NCBI RefSeq assembly: GCF_040907265.1
Contig: NZ_JBFOHP010000002.1
Span: forward strand, 4,588,001-4,652,000
Direction of reading: 5' to 3'
DNA length: 64,000 bases
Origin: Streptomyces sclerotialus
GTDB taxonomy: Bacteria > Actinomycetota > Actinomycetes > Streptomycetales > Streptomycetaceae
The notes below the pieces were generated by a model. That model had not been told where the DNA came from. It saw nothing but the letters and a program-made list of their open reading frames with translations, and made no database searches. Below are positions 1 to 20,388 of the stretch, in pieces; positions within the stretch are counted from its first letter, which is position 1; each line of letters opens with the position of its first letter. Both the position numbers and the translations under genes were made by a program.

Positions 1-630
1 GATCAGATTGGCGTTGGTGAGCGCGGAGGAGGTGGCCACGACCTTGGCGCCGGACACCACCAGGCCGGCGTCGGTCTCCTCCTCGACGTGGACGCAGACG
101 TCAGCGGTCCGGTCGGCCGGCCGGTCGCGGTCCACCGGCGGGTGGACGATCGCGTGGTTGAAGTACAACACCCGTTCCTGCGCCCGCCGGTACCAGGCCA
201 GCGCATTGTCGCGGAACGGACCGTAGAAGTCGGCGTTGGCCTCCAGGGTGCCGAAGAACGCGGCCTTGTAGTCGGGGGTGCGGCCCATCCAGCCGTACAC
301 CAGCCGCTGCCAGGCGACGATGGCGTCGCGCGCCGCGACCAGGTCCCCGGCGCTCCTGGCGGTCTTGAAGAAGGGGTGGGTGAACCCGCCGTTCCCGGTG
401 TCCGTCGGGACGCTCAGCACACCGCGGGAGTCCGGCTCGTGCAGCACGTCGTAGAGCTGCGCGAGGGACCTGGCGCTGTTGCGGAAGGCGGGGTGCGCGG
501 TGACGTCCCGGACCCGCTCCCCGTGGATGTAGACCGCACGCCCGTCCCGCAGGGAATCCAGGTATTCCGCACCGGTCATCGGACGGACACCGTTCTGCAC
601 GTCCGCATTTGTACCTGACGCTGTCGTCAA
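1..630 (-). CDS. HpaB/Sam5-type FADH2-dependent aromatic 3-hydroxylase (partial, C-terminus off window)
   Basis: This is the N-terminal 210 codons of a 4-hydroxyphenylacetate/4-coumarate 3-hydroxylase family enzyme, which ortho-hydroxylates phenols using FADH2 from a partner reductase. Visible family motifs are [62 protein letters not shown] and [19 protein letters not shown]. The wording resembles what I recall of Sam5 (saccharomicin 4-coumarate 3-hydroxylase) more than E. coli HpaB or SgcC. I chose the TTG at 628-630 because GAGAG lies just upstream and because the relatives carry a similar leader before the RPMTG motif; ATG at 577-579 would cut it. It runs off the left edge, so the FAD and substrate region is not seen. 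It is divergent from the sensor kinase. The family is secure; the substrate is inferred. Confidence 0.85.
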
Positions 631-966
631 CTCGGCTCTCTTTCGGAGAAAAGGCAGCCGGCCTTGATCGGCTACTTCGGTGGCGTGACAGGGAACAAGG
701 CGGACAGCGGTATTGCCGCAGGGAATTCTCTTGCGTGAAGGCCCGGGCGGGCGCGGCCCGGCGGAATCCGGGCCCGGCACACGGCGGGCGGCCGGTGACG
801 GAAGCGGCCCGCCGCACGGGCGGGTCGCGTCCCGCCGGCGGGACGGGCCGGGCGTGACGCTGTCCAACGGCGCTGCCGGAGACGAAAGTTCCAAGCAGTC
901 CGACCAAGGTATCGTCCCTCGTCCGGACCGCTCCGGGAAAGAGATCATGCCGGTAAAGTCACGGCC
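631..966. promoter_or_regulatory. Divergent control region between hydroxylase and sensor kinase
   Basis: This 336-base gap separates two divergent genes and contains no convincing reading frame. Two related nonamers lie at 881-889 (GACGAAAGT) and 902-910 (GACCAAGGT), 21 bases apart. They resemble the GACCGAAGT repeats in front of the response regulator at 20389. No clear -10/-35 pair was recognised. Confidence 0.35.
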
Positions 967-2103
967 GTGCCTGACTCCGTGAACCCATCCGCGTTCATTC
1001 GGCGGAGTCCACGGGACTGGGCCGTGGACACCGCCCTGTTCCTCCTTGCGGTGGCCTACGGTGTGGCCACTGCGAAGAGCAGAGGGCAGGCGGACCCCGA
1101 CATCGGACTGAACTGGTGGTACGCCGAGCAGCTCGCCGGGGCATTCGGCTGCGCACTGCTGTGGCTGCGCCGGCGCAAGCCGGTCGAGGTCGCCTTCGTC
1201 CTCATCGCCCTGTCGGTGCCGTTCGAAATGGTGGCGGGCGCCATGCTCGTCGCTCTTTTCACCGTCGCGGTGCACCGCAATCCGCGGACCACCGGGATCG
1301 TCTTCGCGGCGAGCGTGCTGCCGGTGGTGTCCGACGGCTTCCTGCGCCCCGACGCCGCCCTGCCGGCCTTCCACTTCTTCCTCTTCGGCACTCTCGTACA
1401 GGCCGGCGCCGTCGGCTGGGGACTGTCCATCCACCACCGCCGCCAGCTGCTGGAACGCGTGGCGGCCGAGGCGGGGCTCCGGGCCGAGCAGGCCCAGATG
1501 CGGGCACGCGAAGAGGTGGCCAGGGAGATGCACGACGTGCTCGGCCACCGGCTGTCGCTGCTGAGCCTGCACGCCGGGGCACTGGAGTACCGGCCGGACG
1601 CCCCGAGCGAGGACGTCGCACGGGCGGCGGGCGTGATCCGGGAGAGCGCCCACAAGGCGCTCCAGGACCTGCGCGAGGTGCTGACGGTACTGCGGGCACC
1701 GGCCGGGGAGCTGCCCCAGCCCACGCTGGCCGACGTGCACCGGCTCGTCGCGGAGTCGTGTGCGGCGGGGATGCGGGTACGGCTGGTCGAGGAGGTTCCG
1801 GAGGACGTCCCGGAACTGATCGGCCGCACGGCGTACCGCGTCGTCCAGGAAGCCCTCACCAACGTACGGAAACACGCCTCCGGAGCCGAGGCGGACGTCC
1901 ATGTGTCGGGGAAGCCGGGGGACGGGCTCCAGGTCGAGGTGGCCAACGCCGCCCCCGGCCCCCGGACGCCCCACGCGCACGCCGCGCCGGGCCAGGGACT
2001 GGCGGGGCTGGCCGAGCGGGTGTCCCTTGCCGGCGGGCAGCTGGCGTACGGCCCGGCCGGGTGCGGGGGCTGGGAGATCACGGCACGGCTGCCCTGGCCG
2101 TAG
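967..2103 (+). CDS. Two-component sensor histidine kinase (HisKA_3 type)
   Basis: A 378-residue membrane sensor kinase of the NarL-partner class. The first ~150 residues hold several hydrophobic segments (for example [15 protein letters not shown] and the stretch around [19 protein letters not shown]). The dimerisation box [20 protein letters not shown] carries the phosphoacceptor His189. An N-box ([13 protein letters not shown]) and a G-box ([16 protein letters not shown]) form the ATPase domain. GTG at 967 is the longest start; GTG 979 is an alternative. No response regulator is adjacent. The only LuxR-type regulator in the window starts at 20389, and its upstream repeats resemble two copies in front of this gene, so the two may be a split pair (inference). 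Confidence 0.85.
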
Positions 2104-2200
2104 ATCCGGGCCTTCCCGCCCTCCCGCGCAGACGAGATCTCTGATACCGAAGAGCGCCCGGCAGTGGCGCGACCGATCAACGAGTTGGAGTGTGCTGACT

Positions 2201-2905
2201 GTGTCGAAAGAGCTGAATCCCAAGGCGGACAACGCCACGGAGGTCACCGAACCCCTCTGGGGCCAGATACTCGTCTGCGTGGTGTTCGGGCTGCTCGGAG
2301 CCGCGGCCGGCTGGTTGGTCAAGCTGCTCGTCGGCTGGCTGGTGTCCCTGCCGTGGGCGCCCATGCAGGGCCCTGCCAGGCTCCTCGACTCGATTCCCGA
2401 GCCCGGTCTCACCATCGGGCTGATCACCGTGGGCGGCCTTGTCGGCCTGGTCGGCGGTGTGCTCATCAAGTTCAGCGAACTGTCGGTCAGCGTGTCCGAC
2501 AGCCGTGTGGTCCTCACGCGCAGCGGCGAGTCGCAGGAGTACGCGCGCGGTGCCGTCGCCATGGCGTTCCGGGACGGCAAGCAGCTCGTCCTGCTCGGCC
2601 ACCGCACCGAGGAACTGGCCCGGGAGAACTGCGACCAGGACCGCCGCCGGCTCGCCGACGCCTTCACCGCGCACGGCTACGACTGGGCCGACCAGGACCC
2701 GTACCAGAAGGAGTTCCAGCTGTGGGTGCCGGAGACGTCCAAGCTGCCGTCGCAGGCGAACGCGCTGCTGAAGGCGCGCGGCGAGCTGCTGAAGAAGCCG
2801 GGTACGGCCGAGGAGCGCAACGCGCTCCGCGAGGAGCTGACGAAGCTCGACGTCGTCGTGCGCGACAAGGACAAGCGGCAGTACTGGCGTCCCCTCGGCC
2901 GCTGA
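2201..2905 (+). CDS. YqeB-like two-TM membrane protein
   Basis: A 234-residue protein with two hydrophobic segments ([19 protein letters not shown] and [19 protein letters not shown]) followed by a soluble domain. Its middle ([21 protein letters not shown]) looks like a bacterial PH-type beta domain, and its tail ([15 protein letters not shown]) resembles the conserved C-terminus of YqeB proteins. The GTG at 2201 has GGAG ten bases upstream. It is convergent with the glycosyltransferase operon across a shared hairpin. Biochemical function is unknown; the YqeB assignment is from memory and moderate in certainty. No link to metabolite assembly is evident. Confidence 0.6.
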
Positions 2906-2925
2906 CCCTCGGCGTGCCTTTGGCC

Positions 2926-2951
2926 CCGCTGCGGTCAGCCGACCGCAGCGG
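2926..2951. terminator. Bidirectional hairpin between convergent genes
   Basis: CCGCTGCGGTC and its exact reverse complement (11 bp) flank a 4-base loop AGCC. The stem overlaps the stop codon and last codons of GT1 and sits 20 bases after the YqeB-like stop. It has no T-run, which is common for Streptomyces terminators. Confidence 0.6.
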
Positions 2952-4206
2952 TGGCCCTTTCCGCCAGCTCCTGGGCGAGACCGTTGGCGTGCGGCACGGC
3001 GTGCAGCTCGTCGCGCAGCGCCTGCGCACGCCGGCGGAAGGTCCCGTCCTCCAGGAGCCGCAGCAAGGACGTACGGACGAGCTGCCCGGTGGCGCGGGTC
3101 GAGTGGGTGGTGAGCCCGGCGCCCTGGGCGGCCAGCCGGTCGGACAGCAGCGGCTGGTCGACGTCCCAGGGCAGCGCGAGCTGGGGTACGCCGTAGAACG
3201 CCGCGGTGGTGAGCGTGCCCACCCCGGCGTGGTGGATGACCGCTGAGCAGGTCGGCAGCAGCGCCTGCATCGGTACGTACGGCACCAGCCGGGCGTTCGC
3301 CGGCACCCGCCGCAGCCGTTGCCGGGCGGCGTCGCTGACCGTCGCCACCAGCTCGATGTCCAGATCGCCGACGGCGTCGAGGATGTCCTGGATGTCGACG
3401 GGGTAGCGCAGCCCGTGGTCGCTGACCGTGAGGCCCAGTGTCAGCGCGACCCGCGGACGCCGCGGCGGCTCCCACAGCCAGCGCGGCACGGCGGCCGGTC
3501 CGCCGTACGGCGTGAAGCGCACCGACCGGTAGTCCAGCCCGGCCGCGTGGACCTGCAGCGACGGCGGCAGCAGGTCGATGCTGAACTGGCCGGTGACCAT
3601 GTCCTCCGTGAACTCCCCGCCATAGGCGCGGGCATAGCCGCCCAGCCATTCGCCGAGCGGGTCGGCGCGGTCCTCCGGCGGCCGCTGCGCGGTGAGCCGC
3701 AGGAAGTGCTCCCGGGCGATCCCGTAGACGTCCGCGCCGATGAGCATCCGGGCATGTGCGGCGCCGACGGCCTTGGCGGCCACCGCGCCCGCGAACGTGA
3801 GCGGCTCCCAGACGACGAGATCGGGACGCCAGTGCCGGGCGTACTCGGCGAGCGCCCCGGCCAGCGGCGCGTTGGTCATCTTGTGGGCGGCGTCGATCCG
3901 GACCCGGTACGCCTCGCGCAGCCAGTCCAGGGTGATGTCCTCCGGCGCGCGCTCCACCGTGTCGTACGGCTCGGCCAGGCCGGGCGCCAGCCGGGCACCG
4001 GCGCCCTTGAGCCGGCCGACGACCTGCCACAGGTCGCGGTCGCTGCCGACGGGCACCGCGGTCAGCCCGGCCTGTGTGACGGCGTCCGTCAGCTTCGGCT
4101 GGCAGGCCACCCGCACGTCGTGGCCGGCGGTGCGCAGGGCCCAGGCGAACGGGGCCATGAGCAGGAAGTGCGTGCGCTCGGGGTAGCACGTGAACAGGAT
4201 GCGCAT
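2935..4206 (-). CDS. Glycosyltransferase GT1 (activator-dependent, EryCIII/DesVII-like)
   Basis: A 423-residue GT-B glycosyltransferase, the last gene of the leftward operon. It opens with MRILFTCYPERTHFLLM, where His13 occupies the position of the His seen in EryCIII and DesVII, the likely catalytic base. The central stretch ARHWRPDLVVWEPLTFAGAVAA and the donor-site motif HHAGVGT near residue 323 are typical of the family that transfers TDP-deoxysugars with a P450-like helper. No helper gene is in the window. It is the most divergent member of the set at DNA level and lies 72 bp from GT2, the widest gap among the glycosyltransferases. The acceptor is probably a glycosylated intermediate of the linked pathway (inference). 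Confidence 0.88.
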   Translation of the reverse strand: MRILFTCYPERTHFLLMAPFAWALRTAGHDVRVACQPKLTDAVTQAGLTAVPVGSDRDLWQVVGRLKGAGARLAPGLAEPYDTVERAPEDITLDWLREAYRVRIDAAHKMTNAPLAGALAEYARHWRPDLVVWEPLTFAGAVAAKAVGAAHARMLIGADVYGIAREHFLRLTAQRPPEDRADPLGEWLGGYARAYGGEFTEDMVTGQFSIDLLPPSLQVHAAGLDYRSVRFTPYGGPAAVPRWLWEPPRRPRVALTLGLTVSDHGLRYPVDIQDILDAVGDLDIELVATVSDAARQRLRRVPANARLVPYVPMQALLPTCSAVIHHAGVGTLTTAAFYGVPQLALPWDVDQPLLSDRLAAQGAGLTTHSTRATGQLVRTSLLRLLEDGTFRRRAQALRDELHAVPHANGLAQELAERATAAVG

Positions 4207-4278
4207 GATTCGTCTCTCGTCGGGCGAGGCCGGGGCCGGCGGGTCAGGCCGTACGCCGGCGGTGGAGGGCCGGGCGGC

Positions 4279-5550
4279 TCAGCGGGTGCGGTGGCGGGCG
4301 GCGAGCTCCACCAGCCGGGGTACGAGGGCGTTGGGGCTCGGCAGGGCCAGCAGCTCGTCGCGCAGGTCCACCGCTCGGGTGCGGAAGCCGGGCTCGTCGA
4401 GCAGTCGCAGCACCTGGTCCCGGACGGCCGGGCCGGTCGCCCCGGTGTGCGGCAGCTCCAGTCCCGCGCCGTGTTCGGTGAGCTTCCGCGCGAGCAGCGG
4501 CTCGTCGAAGCTGTACGGGATCGACAGCTGCGGCACGCCGTGCCGGGCGACGGTGCCGAGCGTGCCGGGCCCGGCGTGGTGGACGACCGCCGAGCAGGTG
4601 GGCGCCAGCGCGTGCAGCGGCACGAACGGGAGGATCCGGACGTTGTCGGGGACCTTGCCCAGCCGGGCCTTCTCGTCGTCCGCGAGGGTGGCGACCAGTT
4701 CGATGTCCAGGTCGCCGAGCGCGTCGAGGACACCCTGGGTGCTGATGGCGTAACCGTCGAAGAGGTCGGTCGCGGTGAGGCCCATCGTGAGCGCGATCCG
4801 GGGCTTCTCGGGCTCGGCCCACAGCCACTTGGGCACACTGGCGGGCCCGTTGTACGCCACGAACTGCATCCGCAGGTAGTCCAGGCCGCCGGCTTCGATC
4901 TGGAGGCTGCGGGGGAACTGGTCGATGGTGAAGTGCCCGGTGACCATCTCCTCGGAGAACTCCCCGCCGTACTTGCGGGCGTAGCCGCCGAGCCAGTCGG
5001 CCATCGGGTCGGTGCGTTCGCCCTCCGGGCGTCCGGCCTTCAGACGCAGGAAGTGCTCGCGGGCCACGCCGAAGACGTCGGCACCGAAGAGGATCCGGGC
5101 GTGGGCGGCGCCGACGGCCTGGGCGGCGATCGGCCCGGCGTAGGTCAGCGGGTCCCAGACGACCAGGTCGGGCTGCCAGTGCCGGGCGAACTCCACCAGT
5201 CCGTTGATCAGCGGGAAGTTCTCCGGCTTGTGCCCGCGCTCGACGGCGTCGTAGTAGCCGTTGGCCATGGCCTCCCACTCGGCCTTCGAGGGGTCCTCGG
5301 CGGCGTCCCAGGGAGCGTGCAGACCGGCCCGCGCCGCTTCGAGCTCCTCCGGGGCCATCCGCGCCACCCGGAACACGTCACTGTTCCGGCCCACGGGCAC
5401 GGCGGTCAGCCCGGCCTGGGTGACCGTGGGCGCGAACGAGGGCTGGGTGGCGAAGCGGACCTCGTGCCCGGCGGTGCGCAGCGCCCAGGCCAGCGGCACC
5501 ATGCTCAAGAAGATCGTCTTTTCCGGAATGACGGTGAACAGGACTCGCAT
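4279..5550 (-). CDS. Glycosyltransferase GT2 (activator-dependent family)
   Basis: A 423-residue GT-B enzyme beginning MRVLFTVIPEKTIFLSM. The usual His at residue 13 is Ile. The donor-site motif is intact (HHAGPGT, near residue 323). The segment FARHWQPDLVVWDPLTYAGP is nearly identical at DNA level to GT3, GT5 and GT6, and ADWLGGYARKYGGEFSEE matches GT5 almost exactly, indicating recombination within the array. ATG at 5548-5550 lies 23 bp after the stop of GT3, and this junction has the same sequence as the GT6-GT5 junction. Family is secure; donor and acceptor are unknown. Confidence 0.88.
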   Translation of the reverse strand: MRVLFTVIPEKTIFLSMVPLAWALRTAGHEVRFATQPSFAPTVTQAGLTAVPVGRNSDVFRVARMAPEELEAARAGLHAPWDAAEDPSKAEWEAMANGYYDAVERGHKPENFPLINGLVEFARHWQPDLVVWDPLTYAGPIAAQAVGAAHARILFGADVFGVAREHFLRLKAGRPEGERTDPMADWLGGYARKYGGEFSEEMVTGHFTIDQFPRSLQIEAGGLDYLRMQFVAYNGPASVPKWLWAEPEKPRIALTMGLTATDLFDGYAISTQGVLDALGDLDIELVATLADDEKARLGKVPDNVRILPFVPLHALAPTCSAVVHHAGPGTLGTVARHGVPQLSIPYSFDEPLLARKLTEHGAGLELPHTGATGPAVRDQVLRLLDEPGFRTRAVDLRDELLALPSPNALVPRLVELAARHRTR

Positions 5551-6353
5551 GGGTGCGGCCTTCCCGGGGTGTGTCAGGTGGTGGTGGTGCGGTGGTGGTG
5601 GGTGAGTGTTTCGAGGTGGGGGATGAGTTGGTTGGGGGTGGGTGCGGAGAGGGTTTCGTTTTGGAGGGCGGTGGCGCGGTGGGTGAAGTGGGGTTCGGTG
5701 AGGAGGCGTTGGAGGGCGTGGCGGATGGCGGGGCCGGTGGCTTGGCTGGTGTGGAGGTCGAGTCCGGCGCCGTGGGCGGTGAGTTTGCGGGCGAGGAGGG
5801 GTTGGTCCCAGTGGTAGTGGAGTGAGAGGTGGGGGATGGGGTGGCGGGCGACGGTGGCGAGGGTGGCGGCGCCGGCGTGGTGGATGAAGGCGGTGCAGGT
5901 GGGGGCGAGGTGGTGGAGGGGGATGTAGGGGACGAGGCGGGTGTTGTCGGGTATGCGGGCGAGTTTGTTTTTTTCGGTGTCGGCGATGGTGGCGATGAGT
6001 TCGATGTCGAGGTCGGCGAGGGCGTCGAGGGTTTCTTGGGTGTTGATGGTGTAGCCGTTGTAGACGTCGGTGGCGCTGAGGCCCATGGTGAGGGCGACGC
6101 GGGGTCGGGTGGGGGGTTTGCGGAGCCAGTTGGGGACGGTGGCGGGGCCGCCGTAGGGGATGTATTGCATGCGCAGGTAGTGCAGGCCGTCGGCTTCGGT
6201 CTGGAGGCTGCGGGGGAACTGGTCGATGGTGAAGTGGCCGGTGGCCATGGATTCGGTGTACTCGCCGCCGTATTTGCGGGCGTAGCCGCCCAGCCATTCG
6301 GCCAGCGGGTCCGGCCGTTGCCCTGCCGGCTGCTCGGCCTTCAGACGCAGGAA
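5532..6353. repeat. Long direct repeat, copy 1 (GT3 C-terminal half)
   Basis: About 820 bases nearly identical to 9457-10275. By eye the differences are one base and one 3-bp GGT indel near the 3' end of the GT genes. The repeat starts inside the first codons of GT2, spans the intergenic gap and ends at the LRLKAEQ codons of GT3. The offset between copies is 3922-3925 bases. Confidence 0.9.
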
Positions 6354-6851
6354 GTGCGCACGGGGGATGCCGAAAACATCGGCTCCGAAGAGGATCCGGG
6401 CGTGGGCGGCGCCGACGGCCTGGGCGGCGATGGGCCCGGCGTAGGTCAGCGGGTCCCAGATGACCAGGTCGGGCTGCCAGTGCCGGGCGAACTCCACCAG
6501 ATCGCTGATCATCGGGAAGTTCTCTTCCCGCAGCGAACTCACGACCAGGCCGTATCCCTCCAGCAGATGGTCCCAGGTCGCTTTTGCCGGGTCCTCCGTG
6601 ACGTCCCAGGGCGTGGGGAGGCCGATGCGGGAGGCGACGATGTCCTCCGGGGCGACGAAGTCCAGCAGCCGGAACGGATCGCTCCGGCGGCCGACGGGTA
6701 CGGCGGTGAGGCCGGCCTGGGTGATGGTGGCGGCGAAGGAGGGCCGGCCGGCGAAGCGGACCTCGTGGCCGGCGGTGCGCAGTGCCCAGGCCAGCGGCAC
6801 CATGTACTGGAAGATGCTCTTGTGCGGGTTGGTGGTGAACAGGACGCGCAT
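5574..6851 (-). CDS. Glycosyltransferase GT3 (mosaic twin of GT6)
   Basis: A 425-residue GT-B enzyme beginning MRVLFTTNPHKSIFQYM, with Ile instead of His at residue 13. Residues from LRLKAEQPAGQRPDPLAEW to the end are identical to GT6 apart from one extra Thr at the C-terminus. Two internal stretches (roughly residues 52-105 and 155-166) differ. The donor motif reads HHAGAAT, so the second Gly of the usual HAGxG is Ala. From about 6240 down to 5574 the coding strand is strikingly G-poor and C/A-rich, with codons rare elsewhere (GAA AAA AAC AAA). The C-terminal half is therefore a transferred or converted block. It should use the same donor as GT6 but a different acceptor (inference). Confidence 0.88.
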   Translation of the reverse strand: MRVLFTTNPHKSIFQYMVPLAWALRTAGHEVRFAGRPSFAATITQAGLTAVPVGRRSDPFRLLDFVAPEDIVASRIGLPTPWDVTEDPAKATWDHLLEGYGLVVSSLREENFPMISDLVEFARHWQPDLVIWDPLTYAGPIAAQAVGAAHARILFGADVFGIPRAHFLRLKAEQPAGQRPDPLAEWLGGYARKYGGEYTESMATGHFTIDQFPRSLQTEADGLHYLRMQYIPYGGPATVPNWLRKPPTRPRVALTMGLSATDVYNGYTINTQETLDALADLDIELIATIADTEKNKLARIPDNTRLVPYIPLHHLAPTCTAFIHHAGAATLATVARHPIPHLSLHYHWDQPLLARKLTAHGAGLDLHTSQATGPAIRHALQRLLTEPHFTHRATALQNETLSAPTPNQLIPHLETLTHHHRTTTT

Positions 6852-6952
6852 GGCTGTCTTCCTCAGGCTGACTCGGGCCGGCGGGCGGGGGCGCGGAAGC
6901 GGGCGGTGAGCTCCTCGAGGCGGGGCACCAGCGCGTTCGGCGTCGGCAACGC
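6689..6952. repeat. Direct repeat, copy 1 (GT3 N-terminus and GT4 C-terminus)
   Basis: 264 bases matching 10611-10874 with two visible substitutions. It covers the first ~54 codons of GT3, the 11-bp gap and the last ~29 codons of GT4, so it is the right-hand boundary block of the same duplication as 5532-6353. Confidence 0.9.
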
Positions 6953-8164
6953 ATGGATCTCGTCCCGCAGCGCTGCCGCCCGCTCCTGGAAGCCGGGCTC
7001 GCCGAGCAGCCGCAGTACGGCCTCGCGTACGGCCTGTGCGCCGGCCCGGTCGGCGTCGATCACCAGGGAGCCGCCCTGCGCGGCGGCCTGGCGGCCGAGC
7101 GTCGGCCCGTCGAAGTCCCAGGGCAGCAGGAGTTGCGGCACCGGGTGCCGGGCCATGGTCAGGAAGGTTCCGAAGCCCGCGTGGTGGATGGCGAGATCGC
7201 AGGTCGGCGCCAGGGCGTGCAGCGGCACGTAGGGCACCAGCCGGGCGTTGTCCGGCACCCTGGCCAGTTCGCGCTGTTCCTCCTCGGCGACGGTGGCGAC
7301 CACCTCGATGTCGAGATCGGCGAGCGAGTCGAGTACGTCCTGGATGTCGAATGCGTAACCGGCACCGTGATCCGTCGAGCTGACGCCCATGGTCAGGGCC
7401 ACCCGGGGCCGTTCGGGCGGGGTCCACAGCCACTTCGGCAGCACCGCCGGTCCGCCGTAGGGGATGAACCGCAGTGGCAGGGTCGGCAGGCCGCTCTCCA
7501 GCCGCAGGGACGCCGGGAGCTGGTCGACGGTGAACTGGCCGGTGACCATGGACTCGGAGAATGCGCCGCCGTACATCCGGGCGTAGCCGTCCAGCCACTC
7601 ACCGAGGGGGTCCGTGCGCCTGCTGGCCGGCTGCTGGTCACGCAGTTCCAGGAAGCGCTCCCGGGTGCGGCCGAAGGCGTCGATGCTCCACAGCAGCCGT
7701 CCGTGCGCGGCGCCGCACGCCTCGGCGGCGATCGGCGCGGCCATCGCCAGCGGCTCCCACAGGACCAGGTCCGGGCACCACGCGCGGGCGAAGCGGACGA
7801 GGTCGGCGATCATCGGAAAGCTGGCCGGCCGGTGCCACAGCCGTACGATCCGCTCGTAGCCCTCCGTCAGGTGGGCCCAGTCGGCCTCGTCCGGGGCGTG
7901 CGCCGCGTCGTACGGCGCGGGCAGGCCGTAGTCCGGTCGGTAGGACCAGTCGGTGACCGTGTGCATGCTGCGGCGCAGCAGCTCCCACAGGTCGTAGTCG
8001 CGGCCGACCGGTACGGCGGTGAGGCCGGCCTGCGTGATCACGTCGGTGAACCAGGGGGTGCTGGCGACCCGTACCTCGTGGCCGGCCGTGCGCAGCGCCC
8101 AGGCCAGCGGCAGCATGGGCAGCACGTGGGCCTTCTCGGGGTTGGCGACGAAGAGGACGCGCAC
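6863..8164 (-). CDS. Glycosyltransferase GT4 (activator-dependent family)
   Basis: A 433-residue GT-B enzyme starting with GTG and reading MRVLFVANPEKAHVLPM, with His13 present. It has the central motif RAWCPDLVLWEPLAMAAPIAAEACG and the donor motif HHAGFGT near residue 326. Its last ~29 codons are identical in DNA to GT7, marking the edge of the segmental duplication. The start codon is 3 bp after the stop of GT5, indicating translational coupling. It shares WSIDAFG-type residues with GT7 (WSIDVLG) rather than with the GT2/3/5/6 group, so GT4 and GT7 form a pair. Confidence 0.88.
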   Translation of the reverse strand: MRVLFVANPEKAHVLPMLPLAWALRTAGHEVRVASTPWFTDVITQAGLTAVPVGRDYDLWELLRRSMHTVTDWSYRPDYGLPAPYDAAHAPDEADWAHLTEGYERIVRLWHRPASFPMIADLVRFARAWCPDLVLWEPLAMAAPIAAEACGAAHGRLLWSIDAFGRTRERFLELRDQQPASRRTDPLGEWLDGYARMYGGAFSESMVTGQFTVDQLPASLRLESGLPTLPLRFIPYGGPAVLPKWLWTPPERPRVALTMGVSSTDHGAGYAFDIQDVLDSLADLDIEVVATVAEEEQRELARVPDNARLVPYVPLHALAPTCDLAIHHAGFGTFLTMARHPVPQLLLPWDFDGPTLGRQAAAQGGSLVIDADRAGAQAVREAVLRLLGEPGFQERAAALRDEIHALPTPNALVPRLEELTARFRAPARRPESA

Positions 8165-8167
8165 GGC

Positions 8168-9475
8168 TCAGCCTCCGCTCATGGAGGCGCCCGCGGCGGC
8201 CCCGTCCCGCCGCTCGGCGGCGAACCGTTCCAACGTGCCCACCAGGTCGTTCGGGGAGGGCATGGCGAGCATGCGGTCGCGCAGCCCGGCGGCGCCCTGC
8301 CGCAGCCCGGGGTCGGACAGCAGCTTCAGCAGGGCCTCCCGTACGTCCGCCCCGGTGGTCTCCTTCGGGTTCAGCACCAGCCCCGCGCCGGCTCGTACGA
8401 CGCCGTCGGCCAGCGCCGGACCGTCGTTGTCCCAGGGGAGGGTGAGCTGCGGCAGGCCGCGCAGCGCCGTGGTGGCGAGGGTGCCGAAGCCGGCGTGGTG
8501 GATCACCGCGTCGCAGGTGGCGGTCAGGGCGTCCAGCGGCAGAAAGGACGTCACCCGGGTGTTGGACGGTATCCGGGTCAGCTTGGGCTGCTCGGCCTCC
8601 GCGATGGTGGCGACCAGCTCGATGTCCAGGTCGCCGAGCGCGTCGAGGACGTCCTGCACGGCGACGGCGTACTCCCCGCCGTGACCGGTGGTGCTCAGGC
8701 CCAGGGTGAGCGCCACCCGTGGCTTGTCCGGTGCACGGCGCAGCCAGGCGGGGACGACGGCGGGGCCGCCGTAGGGCACGTAGCGGAGCGGCAGGTACTC
8801 CAGTCCGGCCGCCCGGCGCTGGAGGCACTCCGGGACCAGGTCGACGGTGGCCTGCCCGGTGACCAGCTCCTCGGAGAACTCCCCGCCGTACTTGCGGGCG
8901 TAGCCGCCGAGCCAGTCGGCCATCGGGTCGGTGCGTTCGCCCTCCGGGCGTTCGGCCTTCAGACGCAGGAAGTGCTCCCGGGCCACGCCGTACATGTCGA
9001 TGCCGAAGAGCAGCCGGGCGTGGGCGGCGCCGACGGCCTGGGCGGCGATCGGCCCGGCGTAGGTCAGCGGCTCCCAGATGACCAGGTCGGGCTGCCAGTG
9101 CCGGGCGAACTCCACCAGATCGCCGATCATCGGCACGTTGCTCGCCTTGTGCCAGCGCTCCACCTGGGTCGCGTATCCCTCGTGGAGGTACTCCCAGGTG
9201 ATCCCGTCCGGCTCCCGGTCGGCCACGTCGTACGGGAGGGGCATCCCGCCCTTGTCACCCTGGCCGAGCCAGTCCGGGTCCCTGGCGAGGATCTGCCACA
9301 GGTCCCGGTCGCGGCCCACGGGCACGGCGGTCAGCCCGGCCTGGGTGATCACCTCGGTGAACTTCGGCTGGCCGGCGAAGCGGACTTCATGGCCGGCGGT
9401 GCGCAGCGCCCACGCCAGCGGGGCCATGAGGAGGAAGTGGGTGCGTTCTGGATAGGCGGTGAACAGGACTCGCAT
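8168..9475 (-). CDS. Glycosyltransferase GT5 (activator-dependent family)
   Basis: A 435-residue GT-B enzyme beginning MRVLFTAYPERTHFLLM, with His13 present. The donor motif HHAGFGT is intact. The region ERPEGERTDPMADWLGGYARKYGGEF is almost the same as in GT2. The stop is 3 bp before the start of GT4. The tail after residue 420 (RRDGAAAGASMSGG) is unlike the other members. By the order of duplicated blocks, GT5-GT6-GT7 corresponds to GT2-GT3-GT4, although GT5 and GT2 differ more than GT6 and GT3 do. Confidence 0.88.
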   Translation of the reverse strand: MRVLFTAYPERTHFLLMAPLAWALRTAGHEVRFAGQPKFTEVITQAGLTAVPVGRDRDLWQILARDPDWLGQGDKGGMPLPYDVADREPDGITWEYLHEGYATQVERWHKASNVPMIGDLVEFARHWQPDLVIWEPLTYAGPIAAQAVGAAHARLLFGIDMYGVAREHFLRLKAERPEGERTDPMADWLGGYARKYGGEFSEELVTGQATVDLVPECLQRRAAGLEYLPLRYVPYGGPAVVPAWLRRAPDKPRVALTLGLSTTGHGGEYAVAVQDVLDALGDLDIELVATIAEAEQPKLTRIPSNTRVTSFLPLDALTATCDAVIHHAGFGTLATTALRGLPQLTLPWDNDGPALADGVVRAGAGLVLNPKETTGADVREALLKLLSDPGLRQGAAGLRDRMLAMPSPNDLVGTLERFAAERRDGAAAGASMSGG

Positions 9476-10275
9476 GGGTGCGGCCTTCCCGGGGTGTGTC
9501 AGGTGGTGGTGCGGTGATGGTGGGTGAGTGTTTCGAGGTGGGGGATGAGTTGGTTGGGGGTGGGTGCGGAGAGGGTTTCGTTTTGGAGGGCGGTGGCGCG
9601 GTGGGTGAAGTGGGGTTCGGTGAGGAGGCGTTGGAGGGCGTGGCGGATGGCGGGGCCGGTGGCTTGGCTGGTGTGGAGGTCGAGTCCGGCGCCGTGGGCG
9701 GTGAGTTTGCGGGCGAGGAGGGGTTGGTCCCAGTGGTAGTGGAGTGAGAGGTGGGGGATGGGGTGGCGGGCGACGGTGGCGAGGGTGGCGGCGCCGGCGT
9801 GGTGGATGAAGGCGGTGCAGGTGGGGGCGAGGTGGTGGAGGGGGATGTAGGGGACGAGGCGGGTGTTGTCGGGTATGCGGGCGAGTTTGTTTTTTTCGGT
9901 GTCGGCGATGGTGGCGATGAGTTCGATGTCGAGGTCGGCGAGGGCGTCGAGGGTTTCTTGGGTGTTGATGGTGTAGCCGTTGTAGACGTCGGTGGCGCTG
10001 AGGCCCATGGTGAGGGCGACGCGGGGTCGGGTGGGGGGTTTGCGGAGCCAGTTGGGGACGGTGGCGGGGCCGCCGTAGGGGATGTATTGCATGCGCAGGT
10101 AGTGCAGGCCGTCGGCTTCGGTCTGGAGGCTGCGGGGGAACTGGTCGATGGTGAAGTGGCCGGTGGCCATGGATTCGGTGTACTCGCCGCCGTATTTGCG
10201 GGCGTAGCCGCCCAGCCATTCGGCCAGCGGGTCCGGCCGTTGCCCTGCCGGCTGCTCGGCCTTCAGACGCAGGAA
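9457..10275. repeat. Long direct repeat, copy 2 (GT6 C-terminal half)
   Basis: Second copy of the block at 5532-6353. It ends abruptly at the same codon, where GT3 reads HFLRLKA and GT6 reads QFLRLKA. The + strand here is G/T-rich and nearly free of C for several hundred bases. Confidence 0.9.
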
Positions 10276-10773
10276 CTGCCTGCGGACCCCGCCGTGGACG
10301 TCGACGCCGAAGAGCAGCCGGGCGTGGGCGGCGCCGACGGCCTGGGCGGCGATGGGCCCGGCGTAGGTCAGCGGGTCCCAGATGACCAGGTCGGGCTGCC
10401 AGTGCCGGGCGAACTCCACCAGATCGCTGATCATCGGGAATGCCGTCTGGCGGTGACGGTCGGCGACGGCCTTCGCGAGGCCCGTGGAGAGGTATTCCCA
10501 GTTGTCCTTCTCCGGGTCGGTGAACGCGTCGTAGGGCTCCTCCAGACCGGCCCGCCCCGCCTCGGACCCGTCGTTGGCGGCGCGCGCCGCCCACAGCTTG
10601 GCGTGGTCACGGCCGACGGGTACGGCGGTGAGGCCGGCCTGGGTGATGGTGGCGGCGAAGGAGGGCTGGCTGGCGAAGCGGACCTCGTGGCCGGCGGTGC
10701 GCAGTGCCCAGGCCAGCGGCACCATGTACTGGAAGATGCTCTTGTGCGGGTTGGTGGTGAACAGGACGCGCAT
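9499..10773 (-). CDS. Glycosyltransferase GT6 (mosaic twin of GT3)
   Basis: A 424-residue GT-B enzyme, identical to GT3 over most of residues 1-50 (apart from two residues, SQ for GR) and from the LRLKAEQ motif to the end. It differs in residues ~54-105 (DHAKLWAARAANDGSEAGR and following) and in a short loop FGVDVHGGVRRQ. These are N-terminal-domain segments expected to contact the acceptor. It shares with GT3 the Ile13 replacement and the HHAGAAT donor motif, and the same G-poor coding strand over the last ~220 codons. It is coupled to GT7 by an 11-bp gap. Confidence 0.88.
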   Translation of the reverse strand: MRVLFTTNPHKSIFQYMVPLAWALRTAGHEVRFASQPSFAATITQAGLTAVPVGRDHAKLWAARAANDGSEAGRAGLEEPYDAFTDPEKDNWEYLSTGLAKAVADRHRQTAFPMISDLVEFARHWQPDLVIWDPLTYAGPIAAQAVGAAHARLLFGVDVHGGVRRQFLRLKAEQPAGQRPDPLAEWLGGYARKYGGEYTESMATGHFTIDQFPRSLQTEADGLHYLRMQYIPYGGPATVPNWLRKPPTRPRVALTMGLSATDVYNGYTINTQETLDALADLDIELIATIADTEKNKLARIPDNTRLVPYIPLHHLAPTCTAFIHHAGAATLATVARHPIPHLSLHYHWDQPLLARKLTAHGAGLDLHTSQATGPAIRHALQRLLTEPHFTHRATALQNETLSAPTPNQLIPHLETLTHHHRTTT

Positions 10774-10874
10774 GGCTGTCTTCCTCAGGCTGACTCGGGC
10801 CGGCGGGCGGGGGCGCGGAAGCGGGCGGTGAGCTCCTCGAGGCGGGGCACCAGCGCGTTCGGCGTCGGCAACGC
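10611..10874. repeat. Direct repeat, copy 2 (GT6 N-terminus and GT7 C-terminus)
   Basis: Second copy of 6689-6952, with two substitutions that change GRPSF in GT3 to SQPSF in GT6. A shorter identical stretch between the two long blocks, 10315-10442 versus 6393-6520, encodes the conserved WQPDLVIWDPLTYAGP core. Confidence 0.9.
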
Positions 10875-12077
10875 GCGGAAGGCGTCCCGCAGGTCCGTGG
10901 CCGCTGTCCGGAAGGCCGGTTCGTGGAGCACCCGCAGCAGGCTCTCGCGCACCACCGCACCCGTGGCCCGGTCGGCACGGACGGCCAGGACGGAGCCCTG
11001 GGCGGCGGCGCGCCGGGCCAGTTCCGGTTCGTCGAAGTCCCAGGGCACGGCGACCTGCGGAAGGGGGCTGCGGGCCGCGGTCAGGAAGGTGCCGGGGCCG
11101 GCGTGATTGATCACCGCGCTGCAGGTGGGCAGGAGGGCGTGCAGCGGGACGTACGACTCGACCCGGACGTTCTCGGGGACCCGCCGCAGCTTGCGCTGCT
11201 CGGCCTCGGCGAGCGTGGCGACGACCTCGATGTCGAGGTCCGCCAGGGAGTCGAGGATGTCGGCGACGTCGGCGATGTAACCGGCGAAGCGGTTGGTGGC
11301 GGCGATACCCAGGGTGAGCGCGACCCGGGGCTTCTCCGGCCGCCGCCACAGCCACTTGGGGATCGTCGCCGGGCCGCCGTAGGGGATGTACTGCATGGAC
11401 ACGTACGGCACGTCGGCCGTCATCCGCATCGAGGGCGGGAACTGGTCGATGCTGAAGTGACCGGTGGCCAGGTCCTCGGTGTACTCACCGCCGTACTTAC
11501 GGGCGTAGGAACCGAGCCAGTCGGCGAGCGGATCGCTCTCCTCGTGCGGCGGCTGCTCCGCCTTCAGGCGCAGGAAGCGGCTGCGGGTCAGCCCCAGGAC
11601 GTCGATGCTCCACAGCAGGCGGGCGTGTGCGGCGCCGCACGCCTTGGCGGCGATCGCGCCCGCGTACGCGAGCGGTTCCCAGATGACCAGGTCGGGCTGC
11701 CAGTGCCGGGCGAATTCCACCAGGTCGGCGGTCATCGGGAAGTTGTCGGTCCGGTGCCAGTGGCGGACGACGTGTGCGTAACCCTCCCGCACCGTCTGCC
11801 AGTCGAGGTCCTCCGGGGCCTGTTCCGCGGCGCTGTACGGGGCGGGCAGGCCCTTGCGCTCCGCCTCCATCCGCCCCGGATTCAGCTGGGGCAGCCGCCA
11901 GACGGGGCGGTCGCTGCCCACGGGCACGGCGGTGAGCCCGGCCTGGGTGATCACCTCGGCGAACTTCGGGGGTGCGGCCACGCGGACTTCGTGGCCCGCG
12001 GTGCGCAGCGCCCACGCCAGCGGCACCATCTGCTGGAAAAGGCTCTTGTCCGGGGTGGTGGTGAACAGTATTCGCAT
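10785..12077 (-). CDS. Glycosyltransferase GT7 (activator-dependent family)
   Basis: A 430-residue GT-B enzyme beginning MRILFTTTPDKSLFQQM, with Leu at position 13 in place of His. The donor motif reads NHAGPGT, so the first His of the usual HHAG is Asn. It has the central motif ARHWQPDLVIWEPLAYAGAIAAKACG. It is the first glycosyltransferase of the operon, 19 bp after the ketoreductase stop. Its last ~29 codons are identical in DNA to GT4. The loss of two normally conserved His positions makes its activity worth testing. Confidence 0.88.
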   Translation of the reverse strand: MRILFTTTPDKSLFQQMVPLAWALRTAGHEVRVAAPPKFAEVITQAGLTAVPVGSDRPVWRLPQLNPGRMEAERKGLPAPYSAAEQAPEDLDWQTVREGYAHVVRHWHRTDNFPMTADLVEFARHWQPDLVIWEPLAYAGAIAAKACGAAHARLLWSIDVLGLTRSRFLRLKAEQPPHEESDPLADWLGSYARKYGGEYTEDLATGHFSIDQFPPSMRMTADVPYVSMQYIPYGGPATIPKWLWRRPEKPRVALTLGIAATNRFAGYIADVADILDSLADLDIEVVATLAEAEQRKLRRVPENVRVESYVPLHALLPTCSAVINHAGPGTFLTAARSPLPQVAVPWDFDEPELARRAAAQGSVLAVRADRATGAVVRESLLRVLHEPAFRTAATDLRDAFRALPTPNALVPRLEELTARFRAPARRPESA

Positions 12078-12096
12078 CGTGGTCCTTCCGTGGCGG

Positions 12097-13107
12097 TCAG
12101 GCGGGGGCGCCGCGGTGCTGCCGCGCCACGGCGGCTGCGAGCCGGTCCAGCCCCTCGTGCAGCGGTACGCGGGGGGACCAGCCGGTCACGGTGCGGAACT
12201 GCGGCGACCGGAGGACGAAGTCGATCTGGTCCGTGGGCATGGCGTACGCGGCGGGCGCGGTGTCCACCACGGGCACGGGCGGGCGGCCCGTGCGGCGGGA
12301 CACCGCCTCCGCAATCGCCGTGAACAGCTCCGCCACGCTGGTCTGTTCGCCCGTGCCGATCTCCCAGGCCCGGCCGACGACCCCGTCGAGCGCGTCGAGC
12401 GCCGCCGTGAAGGCGCGGGCCGCGTCGTCGATGCCGAGGAGGTCGCGCTTGGCCGTACCGCCGTGCCAGACGGTGAGCGGCTGCCCTTCGACGGCGCGCC
12501 GCATCATGGAGGCGACCACGCCGCGGTCGAGTCCGGTGGGGTCCGTGCCGAGGCTGTAGAGGGTCGACAGGCGCAGGGTGCTGCCCCTGACCAGTCCCTC
12601 GGCCGTGGCGTCGGCGATGGCCTGTTCGGCGGCCAGCTTGTGCCGGTCGTAGGCGGTCAGCAGGTCGTCGGCCCGGACGCCGCGGGCGGCCAGGCCCGCC
12701 GGCACCCTGGCGGACTGGGAGAGCGAGCCGGAGAACAGCAGGGCCGGTGGCCGGGCCGGGCGCCGGGCGCGGACCGCCTCGATCACGTCGTGCACCAGGC
12801 CGAGGTTGACCCGCTCGGCCAGCGTGTCACCGTCGGCCACGCGCCAGGTGCCCGAGCCGGAGATGTGCGCGACGAGGTGGATCACCACGTCGGAACCGGC
12901 GACCGCGTCGGCCACGGCGCCGGGCTCGGTGAGGTCGGTCCGGCGCTCCTCGACGACCGCGGCGGGTCGCGGCGGGACGGCCACCGGGCGGCGGCCGACG
13001 AGCCGGAGGCGAACGGGCCTGCGCGCGAGTTCCCTGCTGACGGCCGTGCCCAGCAGGCCCGAGGCACCGAGGACGGTGATCAGCGGTCCCGTTCCCTGAC
13101 CTGGCAC
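12097..13107 (-). CDS. NDP-sugar 4-ketoreductase / extended SDR
   Basis: A 336-residue Rossmann enzyme of the extended short-chain dehydrogenase class. The nucleotide-binding motif GASGLLG lies near residue 14, and the catalytic Tyr-Lys pair is YDRHK in the middle of the protein, preceded by the Ser-containing FSGSLSQS. Members close to TylCIV, EryBIV and UrdR reduce the 4-keto group of TDP-deoxyhexoses in the last step before glycosyl transfer. Its position directly ahead of seven glycosyltransferases fits that role. The GTG start has AAGGAG six bases upstream. Epimerase activity is the alternative. The earlier sugar genes (synthase, 4,6-dehydratase) are not in the window. Confidence 0.8.
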   Translation of the reverse strand: MPGQGTGPLITVLGASGLLGTAVSRELARRPVRLRLVGRRPVAVPPRPAAVVEERRTDLTEPGAVADAVAGSDVVIHLVAHISGSGTWRVADGDTLAERVNLGLVHDVIEAVRARRPARPPALLFSGSLSQSARVPAGLAARGVRADDLLTAYDRHKLAAEQAIADATAEGLVRGSTLRLSTLYSLGTDPTGLDRGVVASMMRRAVEGQPLTVWHGGTAKRDLLGIDDAARAFTAALDALDGVVGRAWEIGTGEQTSVAELFTAIAEAVSRRTGRPPVPVVDTAPAAYAMPTDQIDFVLRSPQFRTVTGWSPRVPLHEGLDRLAAAVARQHRGAPA

Positions 13108-13204
13108 TGGTTCTCCTTAAGTCCTGTTGCGGATGGTGGCGGGCGCGGTCGGCCCCTTCGGCGCCGGGCGCCGGGATGGGTGACGGATACGGCCGGAGGG
13201 GCCG

Positions 13205-13783
13205 TCAGGAGGCGGCGTACGGCCGGTTCGGGTCCCGGCGCCAGTGCAGCCCGGGCCCGAGGACGTCGCCGAGGTCCCCGTCGACGTGCTGTTCCCACTC
13301 CGCGCGGCTGAGCTGGAAGGTGTGCAGGTCCCAGTGGCGGCCGCGGAAATAGAGATGGTCGCGGAGGACCGCGGTGGCGGTGTCGTTACCGGAATCCAGG
13401 CCGACAGACCCGAAAGTGGCCTCGGTCGTCTGGGCGATCACCCTATCGATACGGAACATCGCGAAGGCGTAATTGATCGTCAGGTATATCGCCTCGGAAC
13501 CCACGCCCAGCCGGGCGCGTTCGGGGTCCAGATAAACACCGGATTTGACGTGCCCGGCCGGGTCGAGCCCGTGCAGCATGCTGAATCCCAGCAGGCCGCC
13601 GTCGCGCCGCCGGGTGATGAGGAAAGCGGCGTCGCATGTGGACAGGTCGCGATTTCCCGGTCGGCCGGTGGGGCTGACGTTGTCGATGCCGGTCCGCAGC
13701 ATGGTGCGGATGACTTCCGCATGGTCCCGGGAGGAGGCGGGGCGGAAAGCGAGGCGGCGGGACGTGGTGTGCGGAAAGAGCAC
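13205..13783 (-). CDS. GNAT family N-acetyltransferase
   Basis: A 192-residue acetyltransferase with the acetyl-CoA loop RARLGVGSEAIYLTINYAF and a C-terminal half (DHLYFRGRHWDLHTFQLSRAEWEQ) resembling RimJ/RimL-type enzymes. It starts with GTG and has only a weak ribosome site. It lies between the aldo/keto reductase and the ketoreductase in the same orientation (45- and 97-bp gaps), so it is probably part of the sugar or tailoring operon. It could acetylate an aminodeoxysugar; self-resistance by drug acetylation is another possibility. Substrate is unknown. Confidence 0.75.
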   Translation of the reverse strand: MLFPHTTSRRLAFRPASSRDHAEVIRTMLRTGIDNVSPTGRPGNRDLSTCDAAFLITRRRDGGLLGFSMLHGLDPAGHVKSGVYLDPERARLGVGSEAIYLTINYAFAMFRIDRVIAQTTEATFGSVGLDSGNDTATAVLRDHLYFRGRHWDLHTFQLSRAEWEQHVDGDLGDVLGPGLHWRRDPNRPYAAS

Positions 13784-13828
13784 GGTGGTCGTCCAATCGT
13801 TCTGGAGGGTGACGGGCGGGGGATGCGG

Positions 13829-14842
13829 TCAGGCGCCGCCCGCCGTGCTGCCGTGCGCTTCCGTACCGTCCGAACGGCGGTTCCGGAAGCTGTCCCAGTG
13901 CATCTCGCCCACCGCTGTCGGCAGGTTGTCGAGCTGGTGCAGGTCCGCTTCCGTGAGCCGCAGTCCGGCCGCCGCCACGTTCTCCTCCAGCCAGTGCAGG
14001 TGCCGGGTCCCCGGTATCGGGACCACGTCCGGGCCCTGCGCGAGCGCCCAGGCGATGGCCACCTGGGACGGTGTGGCGTCGCCGTGGCGGTCGGCGACCG
14101 CGCGCAGGGTTTCGAGGATGGCCTCGTTGGCGCGCATGGCCTCGGCCCGGAACCGCGGGTCCCGGACCCGGGAGTCGCCGGTGTGCAGGTGCTCGTGCGT
14201 GAGCGTGCCCGAGAGGAAACCACGCCCGATGGGCGCGAAGGCGAGGAAGCCGACGCCGTTGCGCCGGCACCACGGCAGGATGTCCCGCTTGTTCTGCGGC
14301 GCCCAGACCGACAGCTCGTACTGGACCGTGGTGAGCGGGAAGACGGCGTGCACCTCGTCCAGTTCCTCGCAGGTGGCGTGCGAGATGCCGAGCGCCCGGA
14401 CCTTGCCTTCGGTGACCAGTTCGCCGAGGGCGCCCCAGGTCTCCGCGAGCGGGACGGCGGGGTCCACGCGGTGCAGTTGGTAGAGGCCGATCGTGTCGGT
14501 CCGCAGCCGGCGCAGCGAGGCCTCGCAGGCCCGGCGCAGATGCTCCGGCCGGCCGTTGCGGACGAACTTGCCGTCGGGCCGGGCGATCATTCCGCACTTG
14601 GTGGCGACGACGGCCTCGTCGTCGCGGTGTTCGAGCGCGCGGCCGAGCAGTTCCTCGTTGGTGAAGGGCCCGTAGACATCGGCCGTGTCGAAGAGGTCGA
14701 TGCCGAGATCCAGGGCCCGGTGGATGACACGGGTGGATTCCTTGTCATCCCGCGGGCCGGATCCATAACCGTAGGACATCGAACTGCAACCGAGGCCGAG
14801 CGCGCTCACGGAGAAATTGTCGGCCAGTTTGGTCTTCCACAT
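13829..14842 (-). CDS. Aldo/keto reductase
   Basis: A 337-residue TIM-barrel NADPH reductase, the first gene of the leftward operon. The catalytic tetrad is visible as DLFDTADVYG (Asp, Tyr), VVATKCG (Lys) and YQLHRVD (His). The C-terminal cofactor loop VPIPGTRHLHWLEENVAAAG is typical. ATG 14842 with GGAG nine bases upstream is preferred to TTG 14857. Aldo/keto reductases serve as 2,3-enoyl or 3-keto reductases in deoxysugar pathways, but this one looks closer to general YakC-like members than to EryBII. A sugar role is inferred from context only. Confidence 0.8.
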   Translation of the reverse strand: MWKTKLADNFSVSALGLGCSSMSYGYGSGPRDDKESTRVIHRALDLGIDLFDTADVYGPFTNEELLGRALEHRDDEAVVATKCGMIARPDGKFVRNGRPEHLRRACEASLRRLRTDTIGLYQLHRVDPAVPLAETWGALGELVTEGKVRALGISHATCEELDEVHAVFPLTTVQYELSVWAPQNKRDILPWCRRNGVGFLAFAPIGRGFLSGTLTHEHLHTGDSRVRDPRFRAEAMRANEAILETLRAVADRHGDATPSQVAIAWALAQGPDVVPIPGTRHLHWLEENVAAAGLRLTEADLHQLDNLPTAVGEMHWDSFRNRRSDGTEAHGSTAGGA

Positions 14843-14954
14843 CTCCAGGTACTCCAAAATATCGATGCCGACGACTCAGTGGCTGCCGGGAAAGGCGCGA
14901 GGGGCTGGCGCGCGGCATACGTCGAAAGATGTCCGGGGGAGAGCGCTGCCCACA

Positions 14955-17086: not shown

Positions 17087-17170
17087 ACCGTTATGTTGCA
17101 CCCCGTTTATCCCTCATTGCGACGGTATGAAGGGATCCCTCCCCTCCCCGGCCGCCGGTTGCCCGCCGAC

Positions 17171-20178: not shown

Positions 20179-20237
20179 GTCCGCACGCTAAGCGCGTCCG
20201 GCGGCCGGGCGTATCGGTCACTGGTGTGCCCCGCACC

Positions 20238-20301: not shown

Positions 20302-20388
20302 ACCCCACCGCGCAAGGGGGTTACCCCAGCTGCTCAGCCGCGGCCGATCCTCGGGGGTGCGGCAGTGGTCACCAGCTACGCTGACCCC

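Follow-up and report, generated by a model that had tools for sequence, protein, structure and literature searches.

A 64,000-nucleotide stretch of the Streptomyces sclerotialus genome (contig NZ_JBFOHP010000002.1, G000:C2:4588001-4652000; hereafter the window) carries in positions 1-21927 the right-hand part of a 55.6-kb gene cluster (G000:C2:4554312-4609927). We consider it likely that this cluster is of the saccharomicin (sam) kind with an aglycone made by a nonribosomal peptide synthetase (NRPS), and that its product would be a multiply glycosylated caffeoyl-peptide. This assignment, with its predicted reactions and product, draws on gene content, homology, synteny with sam and the domain phylogeny of its glycosyltransferases (GTs). 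From the 8.28-Mb, two-contig genome we fetched 79.2 kb of left flank plus one overlapping stretch, called genes with a simple codon-position model and assigned domains to cluster genes by Pfam and NCBIfam scans. A preliminary description of the window had proposed a heavily glycosylated, hydroxycinnamate-type product; a lyase, hydroxylase, sugar genes and GT array agree with that proposal, whereas the NRPS, SbnA/SbnB, a carbamoyltransferase and an oxygenase were unforeseen.

The left window edge falls inside the minus-strand gene of a 503-aa HpaB-type hydroxylase (G000:C2:4587068-4588579), predicted to be a hydroxycinnamate 3-hydroxylase like Sam5, whose N-terminal 193 codons occupy positions 1-579. 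The 210-codon HpaB-family fragment reported earlier is real, and its string [18 protein letters not shown] is found at that edge on the minus strand, but the conserved ATG at 579 gives 193 codons and 210 would need an upstream start. Its suspected resemblance to Sam5 held: the protein is 84.6% identical to Sam5 and lies with it in a 16-row clade (SH-aLRT 99, quick tree of 126 hydroxylases), with PDB entry 4oo2 far off. An aromatic ammonia-lyase (506 aa) stands 26 kb to the left beside a Sam7-like ligase; it is 73% identical to Sam8 and carries the SHL and NGWNQDHVPM strings of Sam8 (SHL and ASG strings read by eye). Sam8 and Sam5 are described as tested enzymes in PMC8234114. The preliminary description named an enediyne-type SgcC homologue as one alternative. 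In such an enediyne-type or beta-tyrosine pathway the lyase would work as an aminomutase, and the hydroxylase, as a homologue of SgcC, would have a beta-amino acid bound to a carrier as its substrate. Two matches favour this pathway: among PDB entries 4oo2, which we take to be SgcC, fits the hydroxylase best, and tyrosine aminomutases are among those matched by the lyase. Against this, identity to 4oo2 is 62%, the lyase reaches 231.7 bits on the aminomutase model (cut-off 501), and no polyketide synthase (PKS) domain occurs among the scanned cluster genes; given that identity and the Sam5 clade, we rejected the enediyne pathway as highly improbable. Elsewhere in the genome (G000:C2:8108714-8110276) lies a second HpaB/SgcC-like hydroxylase of 520 aa, 64% identical to that of the window, with neighbours that by eye resemble flavin reductase, chorismate-utilising enzyme and DAHP synthase genes and a 1450-aa protein whose start resembles an NRPS condensation domain; together they may form a further secondary-metabolite cluster.

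From left to right, the flank encodes GT8 at the far left cluster end (G000:C2:4554312-4555490), RmlC, RmlD, RmlB, a 4'-phosphopantetheinyl transferase, an F420-dependent oxidoreductase, the lyase, a short AMP-ligase (score barely above the Pfam cut-off), RmlA, a C-methyltransferase, an oxygenase of the clavaminate synthase/GntD/VioC kind (below cut-off on all three models), a carbamoyltransferase like ornithine carbamoyltransferase (OTCase), NRPS-B (G000:C2:4567237-4573816), NRPS-A (G000:C2:4573816-4578938), MbtH, a 110-aa carrier-like protein, a 177-aa GNAT-fold protein, a DegT aminotransferase, an NDP-hexose 2,3-dehydratase, a second RmlC (RmlC2), a Gfo/Idh-type 3-ketoreductase, SbnB, SbnA and the hydroxylase. 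These include a rhamnose set. The Sam8-like lyase, RmlA, RmlB, DegT aminotransferase and C-methyltransferase expected in this flank are thus all there, while no P450 domain, the mark of the expected helper of activator-dependent GTs, turned up in those cluster genes that Pfam or NCBIfam scans covered. A flank encoding PKS or NRPS modules and no ammonia-lyase was to have counted against a saccharomicin-like cluster; an NRPS is present, yet so is the lyase.

For comparison, the sam cluster of Saccharothrix espanaensis DSM 44229 was found through the S. tamanrassetensis lyase (25 genomes of its genus searched, five matches at E<=1e-100), and 80 kb around it served as reference, with genes called sam_21 to sam_53 (n=33). 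The Sam5 and Sam8 sequences match recovered genes at 99.8%, and gene order is consistent with the account in PMC3469384: PanD-like and penicillin-amidase-like genes sit where Sam29 and Sam36 are expected by count, in agreement with Pfam. Ten of the 33 genes are GTs, 17 others have a counterpart in our cluster and six have none (a methyltransferase, a sulfotransferase-like gene, one unknown, Sam29, an APS-kinase-like gene recognised by eye, and Sam36). Common to both clusters are the ammonia-lyase, 3-hydroxylase, acyl ligase (61% identity), small carrier, GT array, RmlA (77%), DegT (77%), 2,3-dehydratase (72%), RmlC (74%), 3-ketoreductase (64%), C-methyltransferase (77%), 4-ketoreductase, aldo/keto reductase (70%), a pair of bPH_2 proteins (43 and 52%), LmbU and two GNAT-like genes; the sam-type set for deoxy and branched amino sugars (DegT, 2,3-dehydratase, RmlC, 3-ketoreductase, C-methyltransferase, RmlA) is therefore present. 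The clusters differ in GT number (seven plus GT8 here, ten in sam) and in the NRPS, MbtH, SbnA/B, carbamoyltransferase, VioC/clavaminate-type oxygenase, F420 oxidoreductase, phosphopantetheinyl transferase and RmlB/C/D that are extra in ours. Conversely, BLAST found no homologue within 45 kb of the lyase for the taurine-side genes Sam29 (PanD-like) and Sam36 (penicillin amidase), nor for the sulfotransferase-like gene (itself a weak Pfam match) or the APS-kinase-like gene, and because the taurine-side genes were not found over that distance we rejected a plain saccharomicin producer. In place of the taurine-side and sulfation genes of sam, our cluster has the NRPS, MbtH, SbnA/SbnB, carbamoyltransferase and oxygenase. 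Open-licence full-text literature yielded no report of an NRPS-containing saccharomicin-like cluster.

Within the window, seven EryCIII-type GTs stand in tandem at 2935-12077, all matching PF21036 (E 2e-59 to 3e-55) and PF06722, followed by an epimerase-type (4-keto)reductase (12097-13107; 59% to its sam counterpart), a GNAT N-acyltransferase (13205-13783; 37%) and the aldo/keto reductase (13829-14857), all on the minus strand. This operon had been described correctly: every member is present with matching domains, and its order is kept in three relatives. The sister clusters of S. rhizoryzae RS10V-4, Streptomyces sp. NRRL F-4489 and S. abikoensis JCM 4002 share nearly the same order from GT8 to the aldo/keto reductase at 61-95% protein identity, with six, seven and seven tandem GTs, respectively, and single, open NRPS frames; no F420 oxidoreductase was called in S. 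abikoensis, and the left end is absent in F-4489, where the contig stops. Since gene order is kept in three other Streptomyces, the arrangement is not due to chance. A right limit at 14842 had been given for the cluster, but in S. rhizoryzae and NRRL F-4489 the conserved block reaches 21927, taking in the bPH_2 pair, LmbU, SARP, response regulator and second LmbU genes (the S. abikoensis stretch ends after the first LmbU).

By Pfam and motif reading, the NRPS comprises four modules of adenylation (A), peptidyl carrier (PCP) and condensation (C) domains: A-PCP-C-A-PCP, then C-A-PCP-C-A-PCP. SbnA and SbnB score above their NCBIfam cut-offs (TIGR03944, TIGR03945) and, together with the NRPS, make up the combination expected of an NRPS cluster that uses 2,3-diaminopropionate (Dap). 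Read against a ruler sequence, the A-domain codes are DALQFATVDK, DITQQGEIAK, DLPKIAEVGK and DIPTVAEVAK, and the first A domain may take a basic residue such as Dap. The viomycin/capreomycin set likewise brings together SbnA/SbnB-like enzymes, VioC and a carbamoyltransferase, but NRPS architecture and sugar genes differ from that pathway, and no capreomycidine-forming gene was noticed in the cluster, although no search was aimed at one. The peptide genes might alternatively belong to a small unrelated NRPS cluster, for example for a Dap-containing peptide, lying by chance inside a saccharomicin-like oligosaccharide cluster. No gene matching our NRPS genes occurs in the 80 kb around sam, and no domain linking a cinnamoyl unit to a peptide was recognised, both of which would fit such a juxtaposition. 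However, both here and in the three sisters the genes for NRPS, MbtH, carrier, SbnA/SbnB and carbamoyltransferase are mixed in with those for sugars, lyase and hydroxylase. Salinispora, Herbidospora galbida, Prauserella and S. atratus, too, have related NRPS and SbnA genes no more than 45 kb from the same lyase, making a chance insertion improbable.

The 110-aa protein encoded upstream of MbtH and NRPS-A is a candidate carrier for the cinnamoyl unit: its DSFS motif is invariant in 15 of 15 homologues, its model is helical and resembles an acyl carrier protein (predicted local distance difference test score, pLDDT, 84), and most of the 50 Foldseek matches listed are carrier proteins. In a PDB profile search AcpM ranks second (E 0.004), followed by D-alanyl carrier proteins. 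Its usual neighbour, the 177-aa protein, has no Pfam match but a clear GNAT fold (pLDDT 89; 337 PDB matches at E<=0.001), and as read from 13 sequences it is without the usual coenzyme A (CoA) loop; it may act on the carrier.

Several observations weigh against a caffeoyl-peptide oligosaccharide cluster of this kind. With 5,413 of 7,999 scored proteins reaching E<=1e-150, the hydroxylase belongs to a large family and is not diagnostic by itself, and the NCBIfam models that fit the lyase best are those of histidine ammonia-lyases (319.5 bits against a cut-off of 524), as are its best PDB matches. For the small carrier, Pfam gave no match, the best PDB profile hit is a cytochrome chain without a passing stretch, and among the 50 Foldseek matches listed none is better than E 0.3 and hence none passes E 0.001. 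No matching code for the A domains, and no paper, came from a text search of open-licence literature. Furthermore, NRPS-A opens with an A domain, the thioesterase-site pattern has no match in the sister NRPSs examined, and no amidase was found, which leaves caffeoyl joining and chain release unexplained. Finally, each NRPS gene seems to be frameshifted in the present assembly, whereas the three sister clusters have single open frames: alignment to three relatives shows two non-triplet gaps in NRPS-A and one in NRPS-B, and coding bias switches frame once in each gene, so this strain may not make the peptide. Two inactivating frameshifts would render the S. sclerotialus copy a relic, an outcome compatible with the proposed cluster type; the gaps and the switch of coding bias at both places speak for it, while the remaining cluster genes are called open. 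Small base errors in long GC-rich genes occur in some assemblies. Overall we regard a relic as a genuine possibility, though the less probable state of this copy.

The lyase delimits a wider family. Among 297 genomes drawn from the bacterial family it matched in five at E<=1e-80, two of which (one being its own) reach at least 83% identity, and a scan of named genomes, which reaches close relatives only, returned 25 loci. Twenty-four of these (L024 was left out), together with the window's cluster and sam, gave 26 loci for examination: 19 stretches of at least 40 kb and seven loci of 13-21 kb. By BLAST within 45 kb of the lyase, the 19 larger clusters hold SbnA in eight, a PanD-like gene in two, a Sam5-like hydroxylase in six, a tryptophan (Trp) halogenase without hydroxylase in three, and three to 16 GTs each; the eight SbnA clusters, ours included, have three to nine GTs counted. 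Some stretches do not extend to both cluster ends, and these counts are lower bounds. Gene content across these loci indicates that the lyase-ligase-GT framework is widespread, with variable aglycones and ring decorations. Salinispora pacifica CNR114 (L056-L057, L104) and Herbidospora galbida (L060-L061, L101) combine a Trp-halogenase and flavin reductase with SbnA/SbnB and an NRPS, and Actinoplanes NEAU-A12 (L062-L063, L103) has the Trp-halogenase and flavin reductase; no Sam5-like hydroxylase occurs in the stretches from these three. Kibdelosporangium banguiense (L076-L081) holds two clusters of the family with 14 and 11 GTs, and Amycolatopsis suaedae (L082-L084) one with 16 GTs. A distinct group (L035-L039, L041: S. 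sp. CB00316, S. alboflavus, S. flavofungini, S. aureocirculatus, S. typhae and S. lasiicapitis) shows 62-64% lyase identity, two AMP-ligases, an ABC exporter, a 947-aa RamC/LanC-like protein, DegT and 2,3-dehydratase with no or one GT in 20 kb, Pfam having been run on the L036 copy only.

In a quick tree of GT C-domains, which drew long-branch warnings and allows a loose reading of donors, GT4 (6863-8164) and GT7 (10785-12077) fall with the amino-sugar enzymes Sam14/18/19 (Eva, Sac; SH-aLRT 97), GT7 alongside Sam18/Sam19; GT1 (2935-4206) groups with Sam16 (rhamnose, Rha; 97); and GT2 (4279-5550), next to GT3 (5574-6851) and GT6 (9499-10773), lies with them beside Sam17/20 (fucose, Fuc; 88). 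No donor group was resolved for GT5 (8168-9475). Four of the seven C-domains join characterised Sam GT groups at SH-aLRT 97 or 88, with GT3 and GT6 identical there. The Sam sugar functions are those given in section 11 of PMC8234114, and the donor reading is weakened by Sam12 (Eva), which falls with Sam11 (Dig) and Sam13 and not with Sam14.

GT3 and GT6 share an exact 758-bp tract (5596-6353 and 9518-10275). From residue 179 to the end they are 100% identical in their own genome, 90% in F-4489 and 92% in S. abikoensis, against 74-81% between our GT3 and GT6 and their position orthologues; over residues 54-112 (around 6516-6692 in GT3 and 10438-10614 in GT6) the relation is reversed, with GT3/GT6 pairs 31% identical and position orthologues 68-85%. 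The tree of residues 54-112 accordingly recovers orthologue clades for GT3 (99/99) and GT6 (100/100), whereas the C-region DNA tree rejects the GT3 orthologues as a clade (approximately unbiased test, AU, p 1.5e-34, with our own GT6, identical there to our GT3, excluded). In the C-region tree, GT3 and GT6 of S. abikoensis pair (90/89) while those of F-4489 do not, GT6 joining that of S. rhizoryzae (75/92), which suggests that gene conversion in F-4489 is older or unresolved. Across nine arrays (74 GTs), exact paralogue tracts of at least 24 nt cover at most 0.7% of the 54-112 segment, less than of other segments in eight of the nine arrays, with almost none anywhere in Salinispora; as this segment was picked for low identity, its low share describes rather than tests the pattern. 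Gene conversion homogenising the C-terminal domain and sparing the 54-112 segment is the simplest reading, although the 758-bp identity may also contain assembly error, and by analogy with the general GT-B layout the segment would select the acceptor. Loss of GT3 in S. rhizoryzae by GT2/GT3 fusion was considered and dropped, the variable segment of its GT2 being 39% identical to both.

To the right of the aldo/keto reductase gene, the minus strand encodes a YdbT-like membrane protein with bPH_2 domains (14955-16556) and a YdbS-like membrane protein with one (16553-17101), and no other transporter was found among the scanned genes of the cluster. Both genes of the pair are present by BLAST in 15 of the 19 clusters; Pfam, run on the window's pair and four others, agreed. 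One ABC exporter family, found in four of the 19, occurs in three of the four clusters without the pair and in one of the 15 with it (Fisher p 0.016, uncorrected for kinship), a contrast weakened by other ABC-type genes seen by eye, e.g. beside the Salinispora cluster, that fall outside the count. As a mark of the cluster by itself, the pair was rejected: PF03703 occurs in 231 of 246 congeneric genomes, S. sclerotialus included, where the pair is its only match (three domains), and only the pair's place in the cluster is therefore informative. YdbS/YdbT of Bacillus subtilis and DdE/DdF of Enterococcus similarly set a small membrane protein with one pleckstrin homology (PH) domain beside a large one with several. 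Enterococcus mutants in the PH-domain pair are reported to be unable to export their bacteriocin (PMC8657885), and a protective role against amylocyclicin is listed for YdbST (PMC8144471); those pairs act with bacteriocins, whereas ours adjoins an oligosaccharide cluster. By this analogy the pair may serve in export or immunity, and we offer it as a lead.

The remaining cluster genes in the window are regulatory or of less evident role. Between the hydroxylase and GT1, on the plus strand, lie a histidine kinase (HisKA_3; 967-2103) and a YqeB-like PH-domain protein (bPH_10; 2201-2905), both present in the three sister clusters. Right of the bPH_2 pair follow an LmbU-family regulator (17171-18028, minus; true start probably near 17674) and, on the plus strand, a SARP-type regulator (18113-20029), a REC-LuxR response regulator (20161-21075) and a second LmbU-family regulator (21286-21927), where the conserved block, to the extent observed, ends. 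A DUF2382/PRC-barrel protein (22494-23450) lies directly right of the cluster.

Under the proposed caffeoyl-peptide pathway, the Sam8-like lyase would deaminate tyrosine to p-coumarate, which the Sam7-like ligase would load, presumably onto the conserved small carrier protein, and the Sam5-like enzyme would then 3-hydroxylate the coumaroyl unit. The resulting caffeoyl unit would be joined to the four-module NRPS peptide, probably containing Dap (SbnA/SbnB) and possibly carbamoylated. Rhamnose, neutral 6-deoxy-sugars and C-methylated amino-sugars would then be attached one after another by the seven tandem GTs and GT8, beginning probably at the catechol as in saccharomicin. Export of the product or protection of the producer would fall to the YdbS/YdbT-like pair.

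The review PMC8234114 counts two saccharomicins, calls their saccharide chain the longest known in natural products and gives their mechanism of action as undetermined. The clusters described here provide a sequence-defined sibling class of saccharomicin with a predicted peptide core, in named strains and alongside 19 comparable clusters, and make three questions testable: the role of the aglycone, the order among near-identical tandem GTs, and producer survival or export. Taken jointly, a new class of peptide-oligosaccharide hybrids, a GT cassette system, CoA-free cinnamoyl joining and a YdbS/YdbT-like exporter form a speculative combination that we doubt will hold in every part. If it did, hybrids of a hydroxycinnamoyl or chlorinated coumaroyl unit, a Dap peptide and GT arrays would span Streptomyces, Salinispora, Herbidospora and Prauserella; a conserved carrier and a Pfam-negative GNAT-fold protein would dispense with CoA in joining the cinnamoyl unit; and the YdbS/YdbT-like pair would be the exporter, exchangeable with an ABC exporter. 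Within the arrays, the acceptor of each GT would be set, according to position, by a 59-residue segment of the N-terminal domain, and gene conversion would homogenise the C-terminal donor domain, so that the sugar sequence could be rewired and its order kept.

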